Assembly: GCF_010093595.1 (NCBI RefSeq)
Contig: NW_022985446.1
Location: forward strand, 1,473,269-1,537,268
Direction of reading: 5' to 3'
Length of the DNA stretch: 64,000 bases
From: Mytilinidion resinicola
Taxonomy: Eukaryota; Ascomycota; Dothideomycetes; Mytilinidiales; Mytilinidiaceae
Shown: positions 30,426-57,963 of the stretch, one piece after another
How the letters are laid out: every line of letters begins with the position of its first letter
How positions within the stretch are numbered: position 1 is the stretch's first letter
Notes under the pieces: model-generated
The model's input: only the letters and a program-made list of their open reading frames with translations
Database searches by the model: none
Told to the model about the DNA's origin: nothing
Made by a program: the position numbers and the translations under genes

Positions 30426-32522
30426 CTAGCACAGTATGAAGCTTTGCAACGACGGAGGGAGATCACGGGTGTGAAATTCTCCGTCCATGCTTCCGTGCAC
30501 GTAGGCCATTCCTAAAACTTTCCAGCGAGTTTCCCCCGAGAACTCTTGAGCAGGAGTGGACGACTCATCTCCGGTACCGTCGTTGACCTTACCCCCTGTA
30601 TCTGGTCGCAAAACGCAAGGAACTGAAACCCCGGGGAACTTTACGATGTGATCGCCACTCTTGCAGCGGCGATGGACCAATCCCAAGGCACCTGATTGCA
30701 TTCGACAGACACAATAGCCGTGCTCAGCCAGATAGACGGCCATCGTGATATAGTGTAGAGTAACGGCACTCAAGTTGCGCAGTCCCCGGCTTTGGTCATC
30801 TAGATGCATAGCTCTCTTGATGCCCATCGTGATATATTGTAGGGCAATGACACTCAAGTTGCGTAGTCCCCAGCTTTGGTCACCTAGCCCCCGTACTGCT
30901 CGTTGTCCACAGGACGGGGTCCACTCCATAAGCGCCTCGTAGCTCTCAGCAGCATCAGGACCAAAAGGAGTCGGCTGCGAGACCATATTGGAATCCGCTA
31001 CAACAGTTTGCGCGAGACAGTTTTTGCTGGTATCAGAATGATCATCTGATACAGTACGTCTATTTCTCGATAACAGGCCTCTTGGAACATCGTTGACGAG
31101 GTGCTTCGTATCCAGTAACCATAACTGTAGCGATCTGATGAGGTCTTCATTTCCTTCATCGTTCGGAGTATTTTCCGCGTCAGGCCACGGGGGTGTCATG
31201 AATGAGATTGTGTCTAGAAGATACCCTCTAAGCGTGATCTCCTTTGTATCGGTGATATCGCAGTCGGTCACCATGGGCACTATGCCAGGTGACGTGTATC
31301 TGAAATGGGGCGTAGAGACATGAGACCAGTGAGGAACCCAGGAAGATAGGTCTTCGGGGTTCTCCTCCGGGCATCCTAGTAGGATCGTCTCGGTGTATCC
31401 CGAATATACCAGGCATCGGGCAATGGACGTGAAGATAACTGACACACTACTGGAATAATCAGGCATGATATTCAAAGTCTTCCTGTCGGAGGAGAGACCT
31501 AAAAGCGAGTATACAAAGTCGCGGGGGTCTGACGACTGGAGTGAGCTCGTCCCCTCGGAGGGTCCAAACGTTTGGAGAAGTCGGAAAAGCGTTGGTTGAG
31601 AAGACTCGGACCATCTTGGGGGAGGGAGAAAAGTAACACGTTTGTACAACCGTAAAAGCCGGGATAAGGGGGTAGCGACGATATTAAGCATTATGGCGTT
31701 GTACGACGCATGTTGCAACAGGTTTGAATGAAAGGTGTTCGAAGTGATGGCAAGCAAAGACAAGTCTAGACCACGTGCTACTTGGTTTCCGCATACGAAA
31801 ATCGACTTCTTGGCCGCTGCTAGCTCTTGGACAATCCATATACGTCTCCAGTAGGGCCGTTGATATAGTTGCTTTATTGCCTCAGGATTAGGGTAATTTT
31901 CCTTGCAGAATCTTTCAATTACAGAGTATAAGAGGTCATCAGCATTAGATCCTTTCGGAAGCTGAAGTGCCTCGAGCATCTTATACATGGCATCCAGATC
32001 GCGGAGGGCTCGATCGCTGTGATTGAACGACTGTCCGAGCCATGCAATGACGGCATGGGCTCTTGCGTATGTCTCAATCATCTGCTGGACCTGCCAGCCT
32101 TTTTCGTCATTGTCTGCCTGGTTGATACATATCGCATCGGCCCAGATCACATGATAATTTGTGTTTTTCTGAATGGATCCTAGAGCCTCGGCGAGATTCT
32201 TCGTGATCTTGGTGTGCTTTCCGTCGATCTCAATGTTTATAACTGGGGTAGGATCTCCCCAGACATAAGACAGCGCGTAATAGTCTGGCCGTGGTGAAAA
32301 TCCTGCGTCCTTCTCTAGAATAGTAGTGTCGTTGTCGAATGAATCGAGATTGGGGACTGGGGAGCCTTCTGAAGAGTAGAAACGCAAAGACGTATGAATC
32401 ATACGGCATTTCAAAGTGGTTGATCGGAAAATTGCTCTACTAGGATTGGGTGGGTCTTCTAGTATCAAGAGCCTGATTTCTTTCCTGGAGCGATCCAATG
32501 GCTGGTACTGGAAGGCTGCCAT
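30426..32522 (-). CDS. HET-domain protein, 698 aa
   Basis: A single intact exon. The HET domain spans residues about 75-240, with all landmarks in order: YYALSYVWGDPTPV, VIWADAICINQADNDEKG and YWRRIWIVQELAAAK; then SSDPRDFVYSLLGLS. The C-terminal half follows the usual layout, ending with VLGMAYVHGSMDGEF. Near residues 540-595 there is an imperfect tandem duplication with a 27-residue period (DQSWGLRNLSVIALQYITMG, then DQSRGLRNLSAVTLHYITMA). HET proteins mediate vegetative incompatibility; the domain is TIR-like in predicted fold and triggers cell death. It lies inside a housekeeping block, like an insertion. It is intact, unlike the HET relic at 3-5 kb. Confidence 0.93.
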   Translation of the reverse strand: MAAFQYQPLDRSRKEIRLLILEDPPNPSRAIFRSTTLKCRMIHTSLRFYSSEGSPVPNLDSFDNDTTILEKDAGFSPRPDYYALSYVWGDPTPVINIEIDGKHTKITKNLAEALGSIQKNTNYHVIWADAICINQADNDEKGWQVQQMIETYARAHAVIAWLGQSFNHSDRALRDLDAMYKMLEALQLPKGSNADDLLYSVIERFCKENYPNPEAIKQLYQRPYWRRIWIVQELAAAKKSIFVCGNQVARGLDLSLLAITSNTFHSNLLQHASYNAIMLNIVATPLSRLLRLYKRVTFLPPPRWSESSQPTLFRLLQTFGPSEGTSSLQSSDPRDFVYSLLGLSSDRKTLNIMPDYSSSVSVIFTSIARCLVYSGYTETILLGCPEENPEDLSSWVPHWSHVSTPHFRYTSPGIVPMVTDCDITDTKEITLRGYLLDTISFMTPPWPDAENTPNDEGNEDLIRSLQLWLLDTKHLVNDVPRGLLSRNRRTVSDDHSDTSKNCLAQTVVADSNMVSQPTPFGPDAAESYEALMEWTPSCGQRAVRGLGDQSWGLRNLSVIALQYITMGIKRAMHLDDQSRGLRNLSAVTLHYITMAVYLAEHGYCVCRMQSGALGLVHRRCKSGDHIVKFPGVSVPCVLRPDTGGKVNDGTGDESSTPAQEFSGETRWKVLGMAYVHGSMDGEFHTRDLPPSLQSFILC

Positions 32523-33382
32523 GGCCTTTTTCGATTTGGACGCACCAAGTTTGTAGTGGGGCAGTGCTTTGTAGCCTAGAAAGGCTGATGGAGACGGTGA
32601 AACAAACGCTTGTGTGAATGGAAACAGGAGTTCGGCGCCCCTCTCGGAGACAGTTCTTTATTTGAGAGTCTTGAAGATAGTTGATCCGTCAGTCAAGAAA
32701 TGTGAATAATGAAATCAAACAGTGGGAAGGGAAAAAGAGTAAAGAAGCTGTGCGATATGACAAGGTGTTCAGTCTCGATAGCCACGGTGTAGCATGCGCC
32801 TCAGCCGTGCGAAGGCCAACATCCCCAAAGCATGAAAACCTTATGGCTAGATCAAAAACAGAATATATCTGCACTCAGATTGCGAAATGAAGTTCTGAAG
32901 ACAATGGCATACATTGTTGTAAGGTATGGGTGAAGGTATTTTAGGACGAAAGACCATCGACTAGTCTTCCATGCCTCAGCATTCAACCACGTGACCTTTC
33001 ATGAACTACTCGATTCCAAAGTGCAGCAATCTCATGAACTTTTTGATCCCCAGAGCATATCCCAATAATCTCTAGTTGGATCCACATTCAGTGCAAATAT
33101 AATCCTCCATAAAACCCATCCATGCCCGGGGAGTTTTCACTACCCCTGCACATCTGGGCATCTCAGAACCTCAACCCAACTCTATCTCGTCACCAAAACC
33201 TCATCCTTCCCAATATCAACACCACGACCGCGAGTGCACCCGCTCTAGCCGCACCGAATCCCTCTCCGCGAGGCGATCTCAACTCTCCACCATTAGCATT
33301 GGGCCCACCGCTCCTCTCGCGCGCCGGCCTCAATCAACCCATCACCCACCACCTCAACACCACACGCAACACCACCCACACG
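32523..33382. other. Divergent promoter region
   Basis: Between the HET gene and Mic12. Small complementary ORFs around 32690-32890 are not supported. The 5' leader of Mic12 is C-rich from about 33120. Confidence 0.5.
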
Positions 33383-45953: not shown

Positions 45954-46288
45954 ATGTCAACGCAAACTCCGCCAATGACCCGGCCCAGTCTCTCCGTTGA
46001 AGCGGTCCCTGGAATCATCTTCGGCATTCTCATCCTCGCCACTACGGTCGCTAGCATACGGTATCAGGACTCTATTTGTGCGCTTGTGTTTAGCGTCTAC
46101 TGAGGATCTCGTTGGCGGAGAGGTGTGACCACTCGCTCACATCTTGAGATTCAGTGCTAAGTTTAACCCGAATCTAGTTGATCTCGAAGCTATGACTATT
46201 CTAGAAGTGCCGAACGGAGATGGTACTCCGCCAAGGGATTCTTTAGAGCTACGATCCATACACCTAGACTGGCCATGGCCATGGCCAT
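45954..46288 (+). pseudogene. Small membrane-protein family, copy A (broken)
   Basis: First of seven tandem paralogues. Exon 1 (45954-46122) codes MSTQTPPMTRPSLSVEAVPG, then the family helix with GIIFGIL and TTVASIRYQDSI. It is interrupted by TGA at 46102-46104, exactly where copy B has Cys before its Arg cluster; the frame then continues GSRWRRG up to the conserved phase-1 GT at 46123. Exon 2 matches the family (LVDLEA, DSLELRS, HLDWP) but no acceptor puts it in phase, and after LDWPWPWP it is cut by the 509-bp TIR element at 46289. Dead by stop, frame loss and insertion. Confidence 0.8.
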
Positions 46289-46797
46289 CAGTGATCTATC
46301 TGGACTGGACCCATTTGGAGTTGGACTGGGATGGAGGCACTCGAAAAAAGCACAAGACTGCACTGAGTTCCTATTTAGATGGAGTGGATTTAAGGCTGTA
46401 GATGATCCTGGAGCTCTAATGGTTTATATATACGTATATATGTATGGTGCTGGTGATTCCAGTCTCCAATTAGTTTGACTGTTAAGTTACGTGACGTACG
46501 CTTCACGTGCTTCTTTAGCAAATGCACCTATCTTATAAGCATATATGGCCTTTCTATGTAGTGAAAATATAACATTACTAATCTTCCTACCTAAGGACGA
46601 GATAGAATTAGCTGTATAGCAATACCATTAAGCGTTAACTCTTAACGCTAAACTATTTCAGGAAATTACAAGCTATTTTAGGTGACCCTCAGCCTTATTA
46701 TAGAGCTCCTGGAGCTCCAGGAGCTCTATAGCGATTTTGCTGGACTAAAGTGGATTTGAGGCTTAATCCACTCCACTCCAGTCCAGATAGATCACTG
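46289..46797. mobile_element. TIR element inserted in copy A
   Basis: The left end CAGTGATCTATCTGGACTGG is found inverted at 46778-46797, exact over 20 bp. Subterminal GTGGATTTAAGGCT/GTGGATTTGAGGCT repeats lie near both ends. About 509 bp, AT-rich interior, no transposase: a MITE-type non-autonomous element. CAGTG ends recall hAT-type elements, but no target duplication is visible. Confidence 0.75.
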
Positions 46798-47625
46798 AGA
46801 TTCGCCAAACCAAGTCAGCGCGGCGGAGCGAGCTGCGTAGCTTCCGTCCGGATCTGCCTTCAACCGCTACACAACGGACAAAATCAAGGCCTCGCCTTTC
46901 AAGATCGACGAATTTGATGCCTGGCCCTTTTCCAGCTCCGCGCCATGTTATTCGTCATTGAAAATTGCAGACCCTAGAACTTCCACTCCGGGACACGTAG
47001 AGACGTGTTGTGGCAGTCGTAATTGTCAAGGGTTCGCACGAGAGCTAATACTATTGGTTTCCCTTGGAGGCTATCTCCAAGGGAAACCAATAGTATTGGC
47101 TCGCGTGCAGAGTGGCATGCTGCATGCTGCAGCAGCTATCGTCTTCACAGCCTCCCTCGCATCACCCCTCTCGCAGCTGCCTTAACCAGTGTAAAAGAAA
47201 AACCATATAAAAATGCACTCGGCGTCTCTCAGAGACTGTGCATACTCCGACCACGTTTCATTCCCGAAAGAAGATCGTCTTACACCTTTGGTCTTTTTAA
47301 TCACGTGATAGCTGTTGTAGACAAGAAGATTGTTGCCAGGTACGTACTTCATCTTGGCTCATAGCCATTCTGGACGGCTACATTGTCAATATCACCAGAG
47401 AAAAGGTCCCCTTGTGTTATACTCTCACGTCATTAGGAGACTTTTCTACTTGCTCCCCTTGATACGAAGTCCAGTCTCATGATACTCCTTCCTTTCTTTT
47501 AGGCAATGTTCCTCCTAACATCATACGTCAGACCCAGCCCAAATTATACTTCAACTAGCAACGCACCTAATCTACCCTGACGGCACAAGCATCAAGACCG
47601 CTCCGACATCCCTCAATCCTCCACA
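46798..47625. other. Intergenic, with hairpin
   Basis: Between the TIR element and copy B. Holds the inverted repeat at 47036-47108. No sequence clearly continuing the exon of copy A was found right of the element. Confidence 0.5.
47036..47108. repeat. Near-perfect 34-bp stem hairpin, 5-base loop
   Basis: The arms meet at TTGGAGGCTATCTCCAA. The inner 23 bp are perfect complements and the outer 11 bp (GCACGAGAGCT against its partner) have two mismatches. Resembles a foldback element or a small-RNA hairpin. Confidence 0.8.
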
Positions 47626-48040
47626 ATGACAGAACAAGACTCCCACTCGCTTCACTCCCACCTCTCCACCGAAGCAACCCTCGGCATCATCTTCGGCATC
47701 CTCACGATCGTGGCTACCATCGCCAGTATCCGATGCAAAGATTCCATCTGCTCTCACATCGCGCGCTTTTATTGCCGGTCGCGTCGGCGGAGAGGTATAG
47801 TCACCCCTTTCCGAACTCATGAAATCAAACGCTCACGGAGAAGCGATAGCTGGTGCGTGTGACCTAGAAAATGCGGCTACGGTAACGCAACGATCGGAAT
47901 GTATCGTGCCGTGTCGTGATACGCTGGAGTTGCGGTACTGGCCATCGCCGTATGAGGCTAGCCAGATGGAGATGAGGGAGTGGGATCGAGTGAGGAGGAG
48001 CGGGAGTGTGGAAGAGGAGAGGGGGCTGGAGAGAGGGTGA
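47626..48040 (+). CDS. Small membrane-protein family, copy B
   Basis: Two exons: 47626-47794, then 47844-48040 (or from 47850, both acceptors in phase), about 120 residues. The N-terminus MTEQDSHSLHSHLSTEA precedes one hydrophobic helix, LGIIFGILTIVATIASIRC, then KDSIC and a basic stop-transfer CRSRRRRG. The intron splits the Gly codon after its first base, as in every copy. Exon 2 codes a soluble tail with a shortened signature, DTLELRYWPSPYEASQMEM, then REWDRVRRSGSVEE. By the positive-inside rule the tail faces the cytosol. No signal peptide. Function and family unknown to me; intact. Confidence 0.72.
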
Positions 48041-49797
48041 GAGTATGAAAAGGCCTGAGACGATTGGCCATGACTTGTGTGAAGGAGCGCTCGATTGGAG
48101 CTTCTTTTGGAATACCTTTTGTATGTACTATATACCCCAGATAAAAAAGTACCTTATTTTTTACTCCGTTTTTTGAATCCAAACAGCTGCCCTCGCCTTC
48201 GAAAGTTGTCGCCCATCTGAACATATGCCTAGCCCAGAAGTGGGTCAGGAAGCGGTATGTCGCCGGGTGATGAGGTGGATGAGGTCAGGATTAACATCGG
48301 TCAGGGTCTCCTTTGGTACTCAGGTTGAAATTGATGTGAACTCTGATTTCTATGGGTGTCTAGCTCGTTGTTTATATACTAGGGGAAGGAGGGGGGCCAG
48401 CCCCGGGGGCATAACGTGGTATCTCTTCCTGACGCGTTACTTGATTCATCCTGTTTCCTGATACAGTACTGATACCGTGCTGCAGCACTGCTGTTGCACT
48501 ACCTGTTACTTCCTCCTGTATCAGCATGCTATCCTGATACGTTACTGCATATGAGTTGCTGACCCTAGGTTGTAGTGCTGCAACCCGAGTCATCATCTCT
48601 TTGATTCAACACTCTTCATCTCTCAATCTATCAGCTCATCATTTTCATCAATTCCCGCAATATCTTGCCTGTCTCATTCGAGGTCAGACATGGAAGAATA
48701 CGAGAAGGTTTGAAGTCTATATTTGTTTGTTCGTCAGTATTATGGACTGAAACCGCATCCACCCTCCCTCAAATTTAGACTTCGCATGTAATCTCTCGAA
48801 ACCACCTCTTCGCCTGAAGCGAAGCATAACGAGGCTGAAACGGCACGTGCCTTTGTGGATAAAAGGAAGCCGGATTGATGTTCAGCCTTGTCGTTCCAGC
48901 ATCTGCGGCATCACCGGCATCACCATCATCGGCATCTTCTCCGAGATTCCATTGCCAATCATGAGCTCAAGGTCACGTGTTTGGACCAGGCCCACATCTG
49001 TAGCTTACCCTTGCTGCTCCAGAGAATCTCCAGGCGACGCGCCGTCCCTTCCCGGGTTTCGCGCTGTGACTGCTGGCATCGAAGCTTCCGCCTCAGCTAC
49101 CGCGCTATCTCCTCGTCGCAGGCCCGCCGAGGGGTACTCCTGTGTTCAACGGCACGCTCTATTAAAAAATCGTCGGGAGGAGGCCGGCAGGAGGCCGGCA
49201 TGCTCTCCTCAGAATGCGCAAGGTCGGGACCAGAAAGTGAATCCTTCAGGCACCGATCCACTGACCAGCCGCGCTCTCAAGAGAGTGCTGCTAGTCCTGA
49301 TGCTAGAGCTCGGTCCAATCGCCAGCGTGATGCTCAGATGGTCTATCTATATGTTCTTTCTTATAATTCCCCTGCAAGGCGTCGGCCCTTCACCAGCTAC
49401 TAGTCTTCCTCAATCCTCCACTCCGCCAATCGCCCATCTAGCCATTATAAAGGCTCTCCTCTCGCCAGAATTGTACTAAACCAGTATAAAACCTGCGCAC
49501 TTCACGTCGCCCTTACAGTACTCTTTTAGGTTTCATCATCCACATCATTTCTACTGTATTCTGCATCTCAACTCAGTCGAGAGACGGCCCTCCTAATACG
49601 ATCTACGCAAATCACGAGAGCTGGAAATAAGTTCGCAGAGCCTTATCATCCGCTTTGACCTTGCTCAGTGCTCGCGGTCCTTGCATCTCTCAGACGCTTT
49701 CCACTTTAACAAGGGTGTACACAATCGGCCCAGGCTCTGCCCAACAATTACATCTCAACAACTTTCGCCAAAATCGCCAAGAGAAACATCGTAAAAT
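48041..49797. other. Spacer between copies B and C
   Basis: Contains an LTR-like repeat (about 48440-48620) and two overlapping open frames at 48847-49479 (210 and 171 codons) with no recognisable domain. The longer ends in a hydrophobic stretch, but low complexity and the overlap argue against a gene. Confidence 0.45.
48440..48620 (+). repeat. Dispersed repeat, probable LTR relic (copy 2)
   Basis: GAGTTGCTGACCCTAGGTTG and the CAACCCGAGT that follows match the repeat at about 14590-14630. A CTACCTGTTACTTCCTCC segment just upstream is inverted relative to the other locus. Palindromic CTGATAC/GTATCAG runs surround it. Confidence 0.4.
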
Positions 49798-50179
49798 ATG
49801 GCTCCCGGGCCAATGGTCAGTATCATCTTTGGGATCCTAACGCTCACGGCGACGGTTGCGAGCATTCGATACAAAGACTCCGTAGTACGCATCTGCTGCA
49901 TGTCTCGTCAACTCAGAGGTATGGGTCCTCTGCCCGTTAAGATCTCTCCGGAAGTGCTGAAATAATTTATGTCCAAATGATGTCGAGGCTGTTCCAAGTG
50001 CCATGGCGTCCGTATGGCCTACAAATACCACGACATTCCAGGGCTCTTTCGAGCTGCGTGCGCTCTCCTTTACATCCTTGGACTGGCCATCACCGTACAA
50101 TATTAGCGAAGCAGAAATAAGAGCATGGAATCATGCCGTTGGTACTGATTCGAACGACGCCGGGTGGCTACAGCATTAA
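49798..50179 (+). pseudogene. Small membrane-protein family, copy C (frameshifted)
   Basis: Exon 1 (49798-49918) codes a shortened N-terminus MAPGPMVS directly joined to the helix IIFGILTLTATVASIRYKDS and a weak basic end CMSRQLRG, with the conserved phase-1 donor at 49919. Exon 2 shows the family tail clearly: DVEAVPSA, GSFELRA, SLDWPSPYNISEAE, IRAWNHA, ending TAA at 50177. However, every acceptor in the intron leads to a stop or the wrong frame: the segment like copy E (SAEIIY) and the DVEA segment are one base apart in frame. Probably dead by a one-base indel near 49978, unless an unseen acceptor is used. Confidence 0.68.
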
Positions 50180-51584
50180 TGGAAACGGAAAGGAGTGTTT
50201 TGGGACATTCAACGATTTCAAATGGAAGTTGAGCATGAATACGATGATAAACTTGCACATTTGTACGCATGCACATGGCGACGTAGGCTCTCTCATGTCG
50301 TGTTCGACTCACTGCTGCAAAGGTGTTCTGCTATTGCTGGGCAAGGCTGAAATTTGGATATGCCGTGGCGGGGTAAAATCCCGTGTGCGGCACAGTGTGG
50401 GGGTGGGGTTCGTGAAGGAGTTCTGGAAAACGGGTACTGCTAGAGTATCGTTCAATCATGGAGCCGTTGAAACGCCTGGGTGATTGAGTATGTACGATGT
50501 CCACGTCGGGGGGCCCGGGATGCTCAGAGCTCCGCTCCCTTCTCCCCCTAGCTCAAGTTCAAACTACCTGACTACGGCCGGAGGTGCTAGAGCATGTGTG
50601 CTTGTCCAATACCCTCTTGGCCGGGTACCAAGCCTGACTAGCTACAGCTGATGCCGGACAGGGTGAGCGAAGAACGATGCATCTGCAGATCTGGTGTGAT
50701 TGCAGACCTTCAGCCTTGTCAGATGGTTTTATGCATACAGTTTGATGAAATGCCTATCCTACTAACGCTTCTGCTTACCTTTTCAGATTGCTTCAGCTAT
50801 ACTATAATTGACCGAAAGTTTAGAGGTGGTATCCTTGCACCCAAGAAAGTCAATGAGAGAAGTGCGAGAAGATACTTTGTGAGCAGCCCGTAGACCATTT
50901 GGAGCTACTTTCCACAGGAAAAAGTTCTTAGCGCGGGTTCGAGATGAGTATAGTACTGCTTTTTTTCGCATCAGGCCTCTTAAACATAACAAATGGCACT
51001 CAGATGCTAGACTGTATTCGCCTTAGGCCATGCGCTTACTAAAATGCTTATCCCCTAAGCCGCACAGACTCATGGACGCCACCCAGATTCGCTAGGCGTC
51101 CCCAGATTCGCTGAGCGTCCCCAGATTCGCTGAGCGCCCCCATATACGCTGAGCGCCACCAAGCATCGGATGCTGAGCGCCACCAAGCATCGGATGCCAC
51201 CAAGCATCGGATGCCACCAAGCGTCGGATGCCGCCCCACTCCACCCGCGACATCACCATTATCACACTGACCAAAGGCGACGACCTCTGCCTTAAGGTCT
51301 GCAGTTCGAATTCGATTATTTTCTACTCATTCTATCGAACACCGCCAGAAGTCGCAGGCTAAACGCTTAACATCAGCCCTCTATTGCGCTACGAGACAAA
51401 GTCACTGGACGTCGAAGCCACTTCGTAATATTATTCCTCGCCGCCGTGTAATGATAAAGCTAACAATTTCTTGCCCACAGGAGCTGCTCTGGATTGAGAG
51501 TTAAATCTGCTTCTCATAGCCCAACATACGGCAGCACCCAAATTACTCCTTTTATTTTATGCTAAACGTACCTCACATCTCGCG
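50180..51584. other. Spacer between copies C and D, with minisatellites
   Basis: No gene supported. Two abutting tandem-repeat arrays lie at 51078-51231. Confidence 0.5.
51078..51231. repeat. Two abutting minisatellites
   Basis: First a unit of about 20 bp (CCCAGATTCGCTGAGCGTC) in about four copies, then a 17-bp unit (CCACCAAGCATCGGATG) in about four copies. Confidence 0.85.
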
Positions 51585-52038
51585 ATGCTCGAACATGCTC
51601 AATCCCACCTTCATCTTTCCACTGAAGCGATCATTGGCGTCGTTTTCGGCGTCCTTACCCTCACCGCCACGGTCGCCAGTATCCAATTCAAGGACTCGAT
51701 GGTTCGTTTTTGCTGCACTCCTCGTCGGTCAAGAGGTACTGTCCCTCAGGTATCCTCCTATCAGCAGGGGCTAAAGCCCTCAAGATTTAAACGACGTCGA
51801 GGCAACTGCTGGTACTACTACCTCAGCATCATGGCCTATAAGAACTGTTCCGCTTCTAGACCCGCTCGAGCTGCATACAGTACCGTGGAGTTCTCTGCAT
51901 CGGTCATCGCCATATGAAGTTTCTGAAGCGCAAATAAGGGAGTGGGATCGTGTATGGAGAGGTGGCAGCACGGAGGAGGTTGCCGAGCGGATTGGCCCGT
52001 CTCTGAGACATCACGGGAATGCTGAGGGTCCACGATAA
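51585..52038 (+). CDS. Small membrane-protein family, copy D
   Basis: Exons 51585-51735 and 51785-52038 (49-nt intron, phase 1) give 134 residues. The N-terminus MLEHAQSHLHLSTEA is closest to copies B and G, then the helix IIGVVFGVLTLTATVASIQF, KDSMVRFCC and RRSRG (the Arg cluster is weaker than in B, E and F). Exon 2: DLNDVEATAG, a linker, DPLELHT, then a divergent signature where LDWP is replaced (PWSSLHRSSPYEVSEAQ) but REWDRV is kept. It ends in a hydrophilic tail. Intact frame and splice sites. Predicted single-pass membrane protein with a cytosolic tail; function unknown. Confidence 0.72.
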
Positions 52039-54144
52039 GTAGTGAAAGTGTGGAGAAGATGGAACGAGACGAGGTCTATGATGTATACGAAAGTTACCTT
52101 CGTTGGACCATTCTTATTGAGCGTTATCAAGTCTTATCTCTATAATCCTGTTGCCTAGATCTTGAGGTGTGGCTGGACAAGGCTGAGAGCAATGTAAAAC
52201 GGTACGGGCGCAACACGTGTGCAGGTCAGTGAGGAAATTGGGGTTGTGAGTTGGAATATTAGAACACCGTTATTTTTAATCACGATGAGATTGAGTGCAC
52301 TCTTAGGTCCGGTTGATGGCTCCAGGTCAGATGTTTATTTGGGGTTTAGAGTTTAGACACGGAAGCCCGGAGCGCCTGATACGGGCGTAATAGAAACCCT
52401 GTGTCGACCAATGAGACTTGTCCAACGCTTCTGCCTACAGCCGGGGAAACCGTCCGCGTCAACGCCGTCAGCTTCACTTTTTCTCAGCGTTCTCCCTGAT
52501 TACTCCGCGGACACGCGAGGACTCAGCCTTGCGTAGTTTCGCTTTAACAATGCCCGCCAGCATAATGGTTCTTTAATACTACATTTTAGACTACTTATTA
52601 GAATCAATCTAGGATATGTATGTGATGACTTTGCAGCTATCGCTGGACCCGTCGCCTGTGAAGTGTTCAAAATAACCGACACTGTGAATGTGTCGTAACG
52701 AGAAACCGATTGTGAGTAAAAAACGAGCTAGAACAGCAGTATCTCAGATCATTATTTCATAGAAGCGTTTTACCATATGGAGGAATAGCAGAACCGTCGC
52801 TAAAACAATCTACTCTTCGCTTGGTGAGATTTGGAAAGAGCTTATCTTTTCATCATCAGGTATGAGCTTGCGAAATGCTTCTTCCTTTTCGAATACGCCC
52901 GCACCTTTTCCCTTAATAATCCGCTTCTATTTAGTCTAGCTGCTTCACACTAACATGGCTTAGCGCTAGCAGGGTAGAACACCGGCGTAGAACACCAAAC
53001 TTACAAGCTCAGACGTTGACATCTCGGGCCACGGGAAGGCCGACTGTCGTTTGTAGCTCAGGAGGCTGTGCCATAGCTCAGGAGACTGGCGAAAGTCACC
53101 CAGCACCATCCCTAGGCAGGCTATAGCTTCGGACGGTGCGGGGAGCCCAAAGGCCGCAGTCAGTGCCCGAAGGTGCCGGGATTTTGACAGGGCGCGCGGC
53201 TCTAAAGATCATAGGATGGTCCGTGCAGAGGTGTGGCCATGAACCCTAGCGGTGATCTTACGGTGCGGATTGGTCTCAAGTTGCTTTTCAACACGCTTTG
53301 GCCATGGACCCTAGCGGTGATCTTACAGTGCGGATCAGTCGGTGGACTTTTCATAAGGCTCTGGCCTGGGACCCTAGCGGTGATCTTTATAGTGCGGATT
53401 AGTCTCTTAAGTCAGTGTGCTTTCAAAAAGCTTTGGCCATGGACCCTAGCGGTGATCTTCCAGTGCGGATTCGTCTCTCAAGTCAAAGCTTTTTAAAAAG
53501 CGGTGGCTTTCGCCAGCTTGTCTGACCCTCCAGCGAATCCACATCTCCAAATTTTCCTTGAAACGCATTTAACATTGCACAAAAGCACACATTCCGCACC
53601 TTACATCCCCTCTTAAAGCAGCACAAAGCCTCCTTATAGTCGTGGGATATTTTAGCCTACGCAAAAAGCGACCTTATCACGCTGAACATTACATCATTAC
53701 CATTCACTCGCGAGTCCACCTTGAAGCCTCCGTAACCACCATCCGCTCAGCCCTTTGCTTCCTCGCAGGTATCTGAGATCGTAAGCCTTCTCTCCCATCC
53801 ATCCAGTCAGCTCAGTCGCAAAAGAGCGGTCAAAGTAGAACAGTACTACTTCGACGTAATCGATTTACTCGGCTTGCTAATCTTGCAATGCAGCAATACC
53901 ATTTGCAGACTGCCCATCACCACGCCTCTTGATCTATTCTATGTGCCATCTCGAATTAGGTACGTAGCTCAGCCTTGATCAGCCACGCTTGTCACCTCAA
54001 ACCGCCATCACTCGTCTCTCGTGCTGCCTGCGGCAACCAAAATATGCTGGTCAAAATGATCCACCCTTTCTTTCCGCCCGATCACAAGGCTGACGTTCGA
54101 ATACCACGAAGCGGCTCTGACAAAAGTAAAAGATTCGTCCCGCA
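52039..54144. other. Longest spacer, between copies D and E
   Basis: No gene supported. A four-copy minisatellite lies at 53235-53500, directly downstream of a GC-rich block (52980-53230) of unknown nature. The last 350 bp are probably the leader of copy E. Confidence 0.45.
53235..53500 (+). repeat. Minisatellite, period about 65 bp
   Basis: Four copies anchored on GGACCCTAGCGGTGATCTT begin at about 53235, 53300, 53363 and 53435. A short open frame over it is repeat-driven. Confidence 0.85.
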
Positions 54145-54552
54145 ATGACTGAGCACACAAGATCCCATTCCCACGTCTCCGCCGAGGTGATTGCGGAGAT
54201 TGTATTCGGCGTGCTTACTGTCGGCATTGCTCTTGCAAGCATTCGATATCATGACACTAGCCTATTCGTCCTTGTGTTTCGTGTATGCCGGAGGTCTCGT
54301 CGGCGTAGAGGTATGTACCTATTCCGCTATAACATCTTTCTCATCTTCTCAGACACTTGTGCTGAACTAAGGATGACAGATCTCCGTGATATCGAAGCAC
54401 ACCTAACCTCGCTCGAAGACTCGTTCGAGCTTCAAACCACATCGACATTCTTAGATTGGCCTATAGTACCATCGCCGTATGCTGTCGGGGACATAGAGCG
54501 AATTGAATGGGAGGACGAGCGAAACTTTGAGAGAGCGGATGAGGATAGCTAG
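54145..54552 (+). CDS. Small membrane-protein family, copy E
   Basis: Exons 54145-54310 and 54353-54552 (42-nt intron, phase 1) give 121 residues. N-terminus MTEHTRSHSHVSAEVIAEI, helix VFGVLTVGIALASIRY, then HDTSLFVLVFRV and the strongest Arg cluster, CRRSRRRRG. Exon 2: DTCAELRMTDLRDIEAHLTS, EDSFELQTT, then the full signature TFLDWPIVPSPYAVGDIERI, EWEDERNFERADEDS. The intron is divisible by three and has no stop, so unspliced RNA would code 135 residues with a 14-residue insert after the Arg cluster. Intact; this and copy F are the best reference members. Confidence 0.78.
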   Translation: MTEHTRSHSHVSAEVIAEIVFGVLTVGIALASIRYHDTSLFVLVFRVCRRSRRRRGMYLFRYNIFLIFSDTCAELRMTDLRDIEAHLTSLEDSFELQTTSTFLDWPIVPSPYAVGDIERIEWEDERNFERADEDS

Positions 54553-54992
54553 GCAGTGATTGCCTCGACTAGAATATGCGAAAAAGGGGCGCCTCCACGT
54601 TTCGAGAACGTTGCTGTAAAACTATTCAGCATTGCGGATGATTGAAAGGCGCCGTATTGGCCTATTTCCACATTGCTAGTATCACATAGGCTGTGTGCTC
54701 CATATCCGTGTCTGGTCTCGTAGGACTAGTTCCTGGAAGTTGCAGAGGTTCGTAGAGCCAACGCAGAGTATAGGAAGACCTGGGTGGAGTCTGTGCGCAA
54801 ATATTTCGCAAGTTATTCGGGTCGCGTCGAGAGGCTGAATCTTGCGGTACCACTGGCATTACCCAAAAAATGGGAGCGCGGCTCCACTAACTGGTCCGGA
54901 GATCCTAAACTGGCGCTGTCAGCGGAATGCTCGGTCATGCCAGTGAGTGACTTGAGAGTGACGATAAACAACCTGGTGGTAGCAATGAATAG

Positions 54993-55100
54993 CCTGGTAG
55001 TGTCAGAACAGAGATGCGGCCACTGCGCGCCGTGAGGATCAGCCTACCACGTGATGATCGGGGCGCAGCTGAGGCAACGCCCCCCTCTAACACTGCCAGG
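54993..55100. mobile_element. Small TIR element, copy 1
   Basis: Begins CCTGGTAGTGTCAGAACAGA and ends with the near complement CTAACACTGCCAGG (15-bp TIRs with two mismatches). About 108 bp, non-coding. Flanked by GAATA on both sides, a possible target duplication. Confidence 0.7.
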
Positions 55101-55162
55101 GAATACAGGGACCTCGATTTCTCTAAACACTAGTATTTTTGTACCAATCACTCGACGAATAG

Positions 55163-55269
55163 CCTGGTAGTGTCAGAACAGAGATGCGGCGGCAGCGGGC
55201 CGTGAGGATCAGCCTACGACGTGATGATCGGGGCGCAGTTGAAGCAAACCCCTCTCTGACACTACCAGG
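55163..55269. mobile_element. Small TIR element, copy 2
   Basis: Same element as at 54993; its TIRs, CCTGGTAGTGTCAGA and TCTGACACTACCAGG, are perfect complements. Similarity to copy 1 continues past both ends (about 145 bp in all), so this is a tandem duplication of an element with its flanks. Confidence 0.75.
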
Positions 55270-55816
55270 GAATACAAGAACCTCGATTTCTCTCAACGCC
55301 AATTCTCTTGTGACAGTCACTACCCTCAATTCTAGAGAGTAATCTACGTTCGTTGCTAGTCTCACAAAGTCTCGGAAGCCATTAGACAGTAATATCATCC
55401 ATCGCCGACCGCCAACTTGAACTCACAGAAGCCAACGATTTTTTCTTTCGGAACTTTAAGCACTCATTCTCTCGCTAATGCCCGTTCCAACTGGAAAACG
55501 TGAAGGTCTACCGCGTCTAAGCGTTGGGCTAATCAGGTTAGCCTTTGGCAAAGTACGTACCTCGCTCAGCCTTGCGAGTCTCCCTCATTTTTCATCCTGG
55601 CTTGAAGTAAACACCTTTCTCGAGTGTCAAAGTATCTCTTTTTGGTGCAAAATGCCTGCACATTCCATGCATTTCCCGAATATTCATATCCTTGAGACTG
55701 CGTGCTACTGGCAGCGTGCTGCTTGCAGTAATGATATCTTTACTTTCAAAGCTGACACTCCTTTAGATTCATATCGTGTGCACTCGTAAAGGAAGATTTG
55801 ACTGCATCGTCTAGAT

Positions 55817-56294
55817 ATGTCTATGGAAGCTATAGTAGGGATCGTCTTCGGAATCCTCGGCATCGTCGCGGCGATCGCAGGTATCCGGTACAAAGGCTCG
55901 ATCGGTTTTATTATTGTCTGCATCTGTTGCGGTTGCCGTCGACGTCGAGGTACGTCTATAAACTTCAGTTACACCTTCCCACTCGTGGCGCTTGTCTGCA
56001 GAACTTCCGAGTGAACCAGAGCTAAAGAACCAACTGAACTTAGCTTCTACCGACGTTGAAGCCGTCGATATTGTCGGTCATCTTGCTCCCACTCAGCCCC
56101 CAGCTGATACCGCAATTGAGCTCTTACCAATAAGGTCTAGTTTCCTCGATTGGCCAGTGGTGCCATCTCCGTACGACGCTAGCCATATTGAACGGATGGA
56201 ATGGGATCATGAGCGGAGGAGCGAGAGTGCCGAAGATGAGATGGAGGACCGCATAGTCGGAACAGCACCTGGAGCATGGAGGAGTGGATGGTGA
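55817..56294 (+). CDS. Small membrane-protein family, copy F
   Basis: Exons 55817-55949 and 56002-56294 (52-nt intron, phase 1) give 141 residues, the longest member. The N-terminus is very short (MSMEA) before the helix IVGIVFGILGIVAAIAGIRY; a second hydrophobic stretch, IGFIIVCICCGC, carries four cysteines next to RRRRG and could be palmitoylated (inference). Exon 2: ELPSEPELKNQLNLASTDVE, a Pro-rich linker, then SFLDWPVVPSPYDASHIERM, EWDHERRSESAEDEMED, and a unique tail ending AWRSGW. Intact. Confidence 0.78.
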
Positions 56295-57535
56295 TACTAT
56301 AAACTCGAAGAGAAGCCGGAGATGTGGCATCATGCCAATATTGTCCGTTACTGTGCCTTCGCTATCGAAGTCCGAGCACGGTGTTTTCAAGGCCCGGGAG
56401 ATAAGTGACCGGAGTTAGGCTTATTTCTATCATGTAAAAATACACTCGACTTGCTTCAATCATTGTCGCTCTACCTCAATGTGAGGGTGCTTGACCCTGC
56501 CTGCTGCGTCATCTCCCTGCAGAGATAGGCCTTGTGCTACTTGCCTAATTTGGACGTCTTCCCCTCTCAGCCTTGATAGCCGCGTCACAGATCCGGTTGC
56601 GAATCTCCAGTGGCACACAACGTTCAGGTCAGGGGCTAGGGACTCGGGGTCAATGTAGAGAAGAAACGTGGTGTTTCATGATTCTCAGCCTTGTGAGTGG
56701 GGTAAACGGGAAGTCCTATCCCGAAGCAGCTAGGAGACCCATGCAAGACTGAAGATCCCCGGCCCGTGCCGCACCAATCCACACTCGCTAACGCCCGGGC
56801 GGGTAGTTTGAGCGAAGTGGGGCTGTATCGTGGGCCACGCGGAAGGGGTTGCTTCTAGAAGCCGTTTTCATACCCCTTCCCATGGAGTCGGGGGGATTAG
56901 CCGAAAGATGGGGGTCGCTTCGGTGCCGGCTGGTTATGAGAATGGCAAATCAAATCCACCATCCGGGCGACGCGATTGGCGGGAAGGAGCGTCGCCAATC
57001 GCTCGGGGAAGAATCAGCCTAATTCCTCTTCGTTAGGGAGTAAGGCCGATATCGTGGGGTTTGAGGATCTGAGAATCACCGCCACTCAAGTTTCATCCCT
57101 TTGGAGGCCAGCATGGTCTCTGCCTGACGCGGGTGTGTATAAAGACGACTTTGTACATACATACATACCTCGCTTTTTAATCTTGGGTTTAGCTCTTTGT
57201 GTTCATCGTCTTGATGCAGTCTCTCCTCTATTTTACTAGTACCATCTTCTTTTGGAATTTTCTCTTTCAAACCACTTATCCAGTGCTCCGATCTATGAAA
57301 CGTCGCCGTGAATTGCAAGGATTTGCGACGTTGAAGTCTTGAAGGATTTGCGACGTTGAAGTCTTGAAGGATTTGCGACGTTGAAGTCTTGAAGGATTTG
57401 CGACGTTGAATCTTCCCAGGACCTGCGACGTTGAAAATCTGAAGGATTTACGACATTGCGGCCTCTATTGCGACTTTGTAGCCTCCCAAGCTTTGGACAG
57501 TTCTTCTACAAGAAACTAGCCTGTCTTTTGCCACC
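56295..57535. other. Spacer between copies F and G
   Basis: No gene supported. 56700-57010 is GC-rich with no recognisable RNA or protein. A 25-bp minisatellite lies at 57317-57460. Confidence 0.5.
57317..57460 (+). repeat. Minisatellite, 25-bp unit, upstream of copy G
   Basis: AAGGATTTGCGACGTTGAAG-type units: four near-identical copies with a 25-bp period and then two decayed ones, ending about 75 bp before the start of copy G, so probably in its promoter or leader. Confidence 0.88.
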
Positions 57536-57963
57536 ATGGCCACACACACTTTCCACCTCTCCACCGAAGCTACTCTGGGGCTCATTTTTGGCATCCTGAC
57601 CACCATTGCCACACTCGCAAGCATCCGATATAGGGATTCTCTTTGTGTCCTAGCATTTCGCATTTGCTTCACTTCTTGGCGGCGCCGAGGTGCGTACACA
57701 TTTTCATCATATCTATCGCGCTAAAGTCCGCAGAAATCCCCGACATGGAGAGAGCACACAATACCGATAGGCGGGTTAGATTCACGCTGGAGCTGCAACG
57801 AAGCCATTCCACGTTCCTGAATTGGCCAAGCGTACCGTCTCCGAACAGTGTTGGTGATGCGGAACGAATGGCCTGGGCGGATGAAGGAGATAGTGGAACC
57901 GTGGAAGAGGGCATCAATGCTATATCCACTACGCAAGTAGTACCAAGAATAGATATTGGCTGA
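57536..57963 (+). CDS. Small membrane-protein family, copy G
   Basis: Exons 57536-57689 and 57734-57963 (44-nt intron, phase 1) give 127 residues. MATHTFHLSTEATLG precedes the helix LIFGILTTIATLASIRY, then RDSLCVLAFRIC and SWRRRG. Exon 2: EIPDMERAHN, RFTLELQRSHS, then the signature with two changes, TFLNWPSVPSPNSVGDAERM (Asn for Asp in LDWP, Asn for Tyr in SPY), AWADEGDSGTVEEG and a hydrophilic end. Intact frame and splice sites. Last member of the array; to its right the sequence turns AT-rich and gene-free. Confidence 0.74.

Follow-up and report, generated by a model that had tools for sequence, protein, structure and literature searches.

A tandem family of small, putatively single-span membrane proteins under purifying selection in Mytilinidion resinicola

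Seven small genes stand one behind the other on the forward strand of a 64,000-nucleotide stretch of the genome of Mytilinidion resinicola (Dothideomycetes, Mytilinidiales), and the question raised by this locus is whether they form a genuine gene family and, if so, what kind of protein they encode. The stretch, hereafter the window, covers positions 1473269-1537268 of contig C10 (1,675,696 bases) within a 47.1-Mb assembly. A first-pass annotation of the window had described these genes as a tandem array of paralogs encoding single-pass membrane proteins. Our analysis confirmed the existence of all seven paralogs; the array proved to extend further, and to be less intact, than in the first description. 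These genes belong to a real, selected family, for which we tentatively infer a function as membrane-tethered adaptors.

Identification and extent of the family

The genes start with verified ATG codons at window positions 45954, 47626, 49798, 51585, 54145, 55817 and 57536 (copies 1 to 7, all on the + strand), and the end assigned to the array, 57963, corresponds to the stop codon of copy 7. Leave-one-out profiles were searched against six-frame translations of about 174 kb of DNA from stretches of contigs C10, C2 and C27. Over the 14 runs, these profiles recovered all seven held-out first exons at E ≤ 4.3e-15 and six of the seven second exons at E ≤ 1.1e-8, that of copy 1 reaching just 0.016, and the best non-family match in any run was 0.23. 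Since profiles built without a given copy recover it, the similarity of the seven copies is not due to chance; the wide divergence among them noted in the annotation is supported as well.

The convergence of eight protein queries revealed 15 family loci in the genome: 12 on C10, one on C2 (about 2520547) and two on C27 (C27a and C27b, about 96426 and 98523). All 12 loci on C10 lie on one strand, so that the array is not limited to the seven copies inside the window but continues with five more within 40 kb past it (copies 8 to 12, starting at 72256, 74342, 74975, 76500 and 103366 in the window frame), the final copy ending near C10 contig position 1,577,040. The spacing of the copies is 1672-2560 bases inside the window and ranges from 633 to 26,866 from copy 7 onward.

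The annotation had assigned these genes to no recognised family, and this view stands. No Pfam model matched above its cut-off, either among the seven window copies or among the seven sequences of a second scan, and a sequence search of the PDB gave nothing at E ≤ 1. In the published literature we found no account of such a family and no paper naming the locus-tag prefixes.

Purifying selection

In comparisons among five intact array copies (1070 codon pairs), the share of identical bases is 0.60 at the first codon position, 0.65 at the second and 0.39 at the third, the chance level being about 0.25-0.27; the underlying codon alignment was built on the protein alignment, which favours positions 1 and 2. 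The DNA identity by region provides evidence independent of a protein-based alignment, with means of 0.61 for exon 1, 0.51 for exon 2, 0.48 for the intron, 0.43-0.44 for the flanks and 0.43 for shuffled exon 1. The ratio of nonsynonymous to synonymous substitutions (dN/dS), calculated by the method of Nei and Gojobori (NG86), was 0.22, 0.22, 0.23, 0.25, 0.27 and 0.57 in the six of ten pairs of these copies that have a finite dS, which is mostly high (1.0-2.7); dS is saturated in the other four array pairs, and also between copies 11 and 12 and between copy 8 and C27a. For the pair C27a/C27b the ratio was 0.23. These values lie well below 1, contrary to what strong diversifying selection would give, although pairwise ratios are averages and can hide single sites. 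They support the earlier suggestion that the architecture is kept by selection, and it is clear that purifying selection acts on the proteins.

Phylogeny and relatives in Lophium

We constructed a tree with 13 of the 15 M. resinicola loci and two proteins of Lophium mytilinum. Copies 3 and 10, together with a Lophium model that reads through its intron, have no settled model and were excluded from the alignment, the tree and the selection, segment and motif counts. Three branches were obtained. The C2 and C27 copies group with copy 8 and one Lophium protein (support 98/96), copies 11 and 12 group with each other (100/99), and the second Lophium protein falls in a branch with copies 1, 2, 4-7 and 9 (89/87). 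BU16DRAFT_566069 is 82% identical to copy 8 over 107 columns and is its sister (87/87), and BU16DRAFT_144852 is 67% identical to copy 4 over 132 columns and is likewise its sister (100/99). The excluded Lophium model, BU16DRAFT_91099, continues through the intron and contains a near copy of the first exon of C27a. Both of the orthologs placed in the tree are listed on a contig of 1,613,766 bases, and therefore the array probably predates the Mytilinidion/Lophium split.

A search among 5.8 billion proteins, by a method that needs shared 5-residue words and could therefore miss remote or unannotated relatives in other Dothideomycetes, yielded no genus besides Mytilinidion and Lophium. Copy 5 alone as query gave no match in that collection; the Lophium matches came from alignment queries. 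So far, then, these sequences place the family only in the Mytilinidiales.

Gene structure

The window copies have two exons, the first of about 120-170 bases and the second of about 140-255, separated by an intron of 44-94 bases that lies in a common phase after an Arg-rich stretch in six of the seven, copy 3 being the exception. The predicted splicing of two copies was confirmed letter for letter by public models, which were compared only after the splicing had been fixed: the exons of copy 2 (47626..47794 and 47850..48040) encode a protein identical to BDZ99DRAFT_521123, and those of copy 7 (57536..57689 and 57734..57963) a protein identical to BDZ99DRAFT_521125. Copy 4 (51585..51735 and 51785..52038), whose Lophium ortholog was described above, uses the acceptor AAG. 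Both exons of copy 5 (54145..54310 and 54380..54552) and exon 1 of copy 6 (55817..55949) were placed by profile match and gene model, and for exon 2 of copy 6 (56044..56294) an earlier in-frame acceptor, giving a 52-base intron, is also possible. All of these exons lie on the + strand.

Clean reading frames were found at 10 loci (copies 2, 4, 5, 6, 7, 8 and 11, C2, C27a and C27b). The model of C27a takes the acceptor of the public model BDZ99DRAFT_576172, so that its agreement with that model is no independent check, and the model of C2 ends 3 bases before the GT donor, at the cost of one residue but without a change of frame. The contig on which BDZ99DRAFT_576172 is listed has 590,201 bases, as compared with 571,599 for C27. 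Protein database searches surfaced public models for three of the 15 loci, and the existing gene annotation seems to have mostly overlooked the family.

Broken copies

Not all of the seven window copies are intact. Exon 1 of copy 1 (45954..46122, + strand; held-out profile E 4.3e-15) carries an in-frame TGA at codon 50, and its exon 2, whose remaining first part extends over 46178..46287 (+ strand), is interrupted by an element of 511 bases (46288..46798, with no strand assigned) that resembles a miniature inverted-repeat transposable element (MITE) and has 22-nt perfect terminal inverted repeats. A family-like reading, SPN..AER, resumes past the element (by eye only), and it is because of this insertion that copy 1 has no SPY. 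The element has 20 further matches in the genome, all partial and one of them inside the element itself. Copy 3 (exon 1 at 49798..49918 up to the family donor, + strand; a longer exon to 49935 is possible) shows by eye no AG where the family acceptor lies, and an alternative intron at 49936-50041 (GTTAAG..TTCCAG) keeps the frame open into an exon 2 at 50042..50179 (+ strand), the exon-2 profile match covering 49976-50167. Copy 3 may thus have lost the ancestral splice acceptor, and its status is uncertain.

Four of the 15 loci are broken (copies 1, 9, 10 and 12), three of them outside the window. Copy 9 has an in-frame TGA, exon 2 of copy 10 was found neither by profile nor by eye, and copy 12 contains an in-frame TGA and a TAG, the latter at the invariant Trp of the family. 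Altogether there are four stops in copies 1, 9 and 12, three of which are TGA. The best reading is that of a birth-and-death family whose array keeps losing copies. A 20-kb AT-rich block between copies 11 and 12, at about 80-100 kb of C10 in the window frame (L023-L025), shows strong signs of repeat-induced point mutation (RIP), with a composite index of 0.84-1.52, TA/AT of 1.55-1.83 and degenerate repeats, and leakage of RIP from this adjoining block is also compatible with the stops of copy 12. The window array itself is not RIP-mutated (composite index -0.22 to -0.57).

A quite different interpretation of the stops is that copies 9 and 12, which are otherwise well kept, would be made whole only in the sexual stage, through A-to-I editing of their mRNAs, as part of a new membrane recognition system with combinatorial paralogs that share one docking motif and differ in linkers and N-termini. 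A report on Fusarium graminearum describes A-to-I editing of UAG codons (PMC5496914). Copy 12 fits this interpretation in part: it has a shorter branch in our tree than its intact sister, copy 11 (0.11 vs 0.44), and its TAG stands at the invariant Trp. The prevalence of TGA among the stops counts against it, as a TGA context is not known to be favoured by fungal mRNA editing, and so does the compatibility of the stops of copy 12 with RIP; we regard it as extremely improbable.

Mode of duplication

Old tandem duplication is the best reading of how the array grew. A duplicated unit of about 1.7 kb, as proposed in the annotation, is not supported by the variable spacing of the copies given above, and the flanks of five intact copies are no more alike than shuffled sequence; blastn at E ≤ 1e-3 found nothing outside the exons that is common to copies 1-7. 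We also considered a duplicated unit with a second gene, and rejected it. In an all-against-all comparison of 2,435 six-frame open reading frames (ORFs) from C10 44-134 kb and the C2 and C27 stretches (E ≤ 1e-4), no intergenic ORF recurred among copies 1-7 in the best 120 of 200 pairs, and a 242-aa ORF between the copies (48751-49479) has no Pfam match. Copies 3 and 4 are followed, at a distance of 110-133 bases, by a 39-nt pair that is 72% alike and may be a remnant or due to chance. Copies 11 and 12 share DNA across the gene and two downstream stretches, and a segmental duplication therefore explains the setting of copy 12.

Protein anatomy and proposed function

The M. resinicola family proteins have 94-134 aa. 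A single hydrophobic segment is present in all 15 aligned proteins, with a mean Kyte-Doolittle value of 1.95-2.73, the next best segment in each reaching 0.88 or less, and we predict that it forms one membrane span. In every sequence 0-1 Lys/Arg precede this segment and 4-9 occur in the following 25 residues, and acidic residues outnumber basic ones in the remaining tail (15/15). According to the positive-inside rule, the basic flank of a span lies in the cytosol. The predicted topology is N-out/C-in, and the call is clear for 13 of the 15 proteins.

Invariant residues were counted on the 12 unbroken sequences (10 from M. resinicola and two from Lophium). F-G, D-x-E, S-P and the final W are conserved in 12/12 and E-L in 11/11, where aligned; considering all 15 sequences, F-G is found in 14, copy 9 having F-S. 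In its full form the tail motif reads [YFL]LDWPxxPSPY and is followed by a short helix with the strictly kept Trp, usually as E-W. The annotation had centred the tail on LDWPxxPSPY plus ERxEW; the motif is not complete in all seven window copies, as copy 2 has no LDW, copy 4 reads LHRSSPY, copy 7 has SPN and copy 1, as noted above, has no SPY. The AlphaFold2 model of copy 2 shows a helix at residues 5-57, a low-confidence stretch at 51-88 and a helix at 90-106 that starts in SPY and passes EW.

We propose that these proteins are single-span membrane-tethered adaptors with the cytosolic docking motif YLDWPxxPSPY-helix-EW, a reading to which we assign a probability of about 0.42. The short N-terminus would lie outside the cell or in a lumen, and the protein would cross the membrane once by the helix marked with F-G, which would continue as a juxtamembrane helix bearing Arg and usually containing Cys. 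The acidic, mostly disordered tail is predicted to be held in the cytosol, where its terminal motif would recruit a cytosolic partner to the membrane, and the paralogs may differ in membrane target or fine specificity. We favour this reading because docking sites are commonly laid out in this way, with a short conserved motif terminating a tail that is variable, disordered and tethered to the membrane.

Comparison with known systems

Tandem duplication, the lack of a known domain and birth and death are features of lineage-specific tandem families of uncharacterised small fungal proteins. Compared with these, the M. resinicola family adds a putative membrane anchor and a strictly kept motif predicted to be cytosolic.

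Adaptors with a PY motif (Rcr1/Rcr2 of yeast, Commissureless, PRRG, CYYR and Shisa-type proteins) are described as short, with one span, as predicted for our family, and a motif centred on Pro-Tyr in the cytosolic tail (PMC5578492), an analogy of layout and not a family link. They carry PPxY or LPxY, which none of the 15 sequences of our family has, and our family has no Cys-rich ectodomain. CYYR1 was the sole Pfam model touched by several members (4/7 window copies, best E 0.012; 3/7 sequences of the second scan at E 0.076-0.27). Its scores of 12.1-13.9 bits against a cut-off of 31, together with the missing PPxY/LPxY, led us to reject membership in the CYYR1 or PY-motif adaptors. No Rcr model was listed at E ≤ 1.

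The family was also compared with selfish and incompatibility genes. SPK-1 of Neurospora is reported to have 134 aa, no known domains and no similar sequences outside Neurospora (PMC8092558), and the wtf genes are described with overlapping poison and antidote transcripts (PMC7032740). As far as these accounts go, both resemble our family in being small or membrane-associated, lineage-restricted and diverged among paralogs, wtf also in its pseudogenes (PMC8092558, PMC7032740). Differences are that SPK-1 has two spans and wtf multiple, in contrast to the one predicted here for all 15 proteins, and that the M. resinicola family shows purifying selection and between-genus orthologs. The HET domain (PF06985) that marks HET-type incompatibility genes is not among the families listed for the seven window copies or the seven further-scanned sequences.

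Genomic setting

A Pfam scan covered 20 of the 44 window ORFs of 180 aa or more. Upstream of the array are SUZ-domain, sub-threshold R3H, cwf18, PPR and HET genes, and downstream of its window part WSC, 2EXR, LysM and GH18 genes. The LysM gene comes first and the GH18 chitinase-like gene second, on the same strand, at 64022-67279 in the window frame (L022). HET-domain genes were located at window positions 30429-32657, at L023:3221-5014 and at L026:1052-2794; copies 11 and 12 are each followed by such a separate gene. A linkage with HET genes was considered and rejected. Beyond weak matches, the HET proteins beside copies 11 and 12 show no relationship to each other, and at least 151 matches to HET were counted genome-wide, with 150 of 364 first-look candidates scored, for which reason their adjacency is weak evidence. 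Within the 20-kb stretches around the C2 and C27 loci, no HET gene was found in the 10 scanned of 36 ORFs of 150 aa or more, nor among the genome HET matches listed.

Other features observed in the region include a gene for a BCS1-like AAA protein near the far end of the array (L026:8199-10000) and, between copies 1 and 2, a 34-nt inverted repeat that is 94% complementary with a 5-nt loop (window 47036-47108). A dispersed repeat downstream of copy 2 (window 48310-48590) has an 88% alike inverted copy at about 101.2-101.5 kb in the window frame. Short tandem repeat arrays lie between or upstream of the genes (window 51077-51232, 53234-53475 and 57317-57458; periods of 17-24, about 65 and 25 bases), and runs of N occur on C10 at 69600-71034 and 116988-117417 in the window frame.

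Alternative explanations

Several observations weigh against the adaptor reading. The flank on the C-terminal side of the span is net positive in just 13 of the 15 proteins, and the topology call is weaker for C27a and C27b, where acids just past the Arg cluster cancel its charge and, over 25 residues, outnumber the bases by one. The upstream half of the tail motif varies, LDW being absent in copies 2 and 4, and the tail helix of copy 2 is weak evidence, as its model was built from 5 sequences with a mean pLDDT (AlphaFold2's per-residue confidence) of 58.5. The four broken loci indicate that some copies are dispensable. Finally, the 400 bases upstream of seven intact copies (2, 4-8 and 11) contain no shared motif when searched on the same strand and compared with random sets, and co-regulation is therefore not indicated.

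In the main rival explanation these proteins would be small regulatory subunits whose transmembrane helix binds and modulates a transporter, channel or synthase within the bilayer, the tail serving just trafficking or turnover. The DNA is indeed best conserved in exon 1, where the membrane segment is encoded (0.61 vs 0.51 for exon 2), and F-G is almost always kept, but the tail is equally strict, with S-P and the final W in all unbroken sequences from loci on three contigs, and we consider this explanation unlikely. The invariant S-P, the minimal target of proline-directed kinases, would also agree with anchors that use this dipeptide as a kinase site and the tail as a sorting signal, so that the proteins would be cargo or stress sensors rather than adaptors; two-residue matches are common, however, and the kept Trp near the end is left unexplained, which makes this rather improbable.

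The broken loci, one further uncertain copy and the public models surfaced for so few loci could instead point to an orphan family that drift is eroding into a largely neutral relic, most of its copies being unexpressed. The bias among codon positions, the low dN/dS of the intact array copies and of C27a/C27b and the conservation to Lophium argue otherwise, and we judge a relic to be quite improbable. Allorecognition or an effector role had been raised in the annotation, openly as speculation, and nothing positive emerged for it beyond the HET genes beside copies 11 and 12, whose ORFs lie 0.3 and 1.3 kb downstream. The corresponding explanation, in which selfish killer genes or allorecognition genes form a diversifying array of rapid birth and death and their products damage the membranes of partners or spores without a matching copy, would suit small, order-restricted and far-diverged tandem paralogs with broken copies, the more so as SPK-1 is likewise small, domainless and lineage-limited. 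It is highly improbable in view of a dN/dS well below 1, orthologs 67-82% identical between genera, one predicted span where SPK-1 has two and wtf multiple, and HET neighbours that are mutually unrelated in a genome where HET matches abound.

Conclusions

The locus does not represent a recognisably new kind of system. As far as the searches reach, this apparently undescribed family is confined to one small order, and yet its compact design of membrane segment plus motif is clearly held by purifying selection. Families of this type may give rise to new fungal membrane functions, and the short motif described here can be tested.

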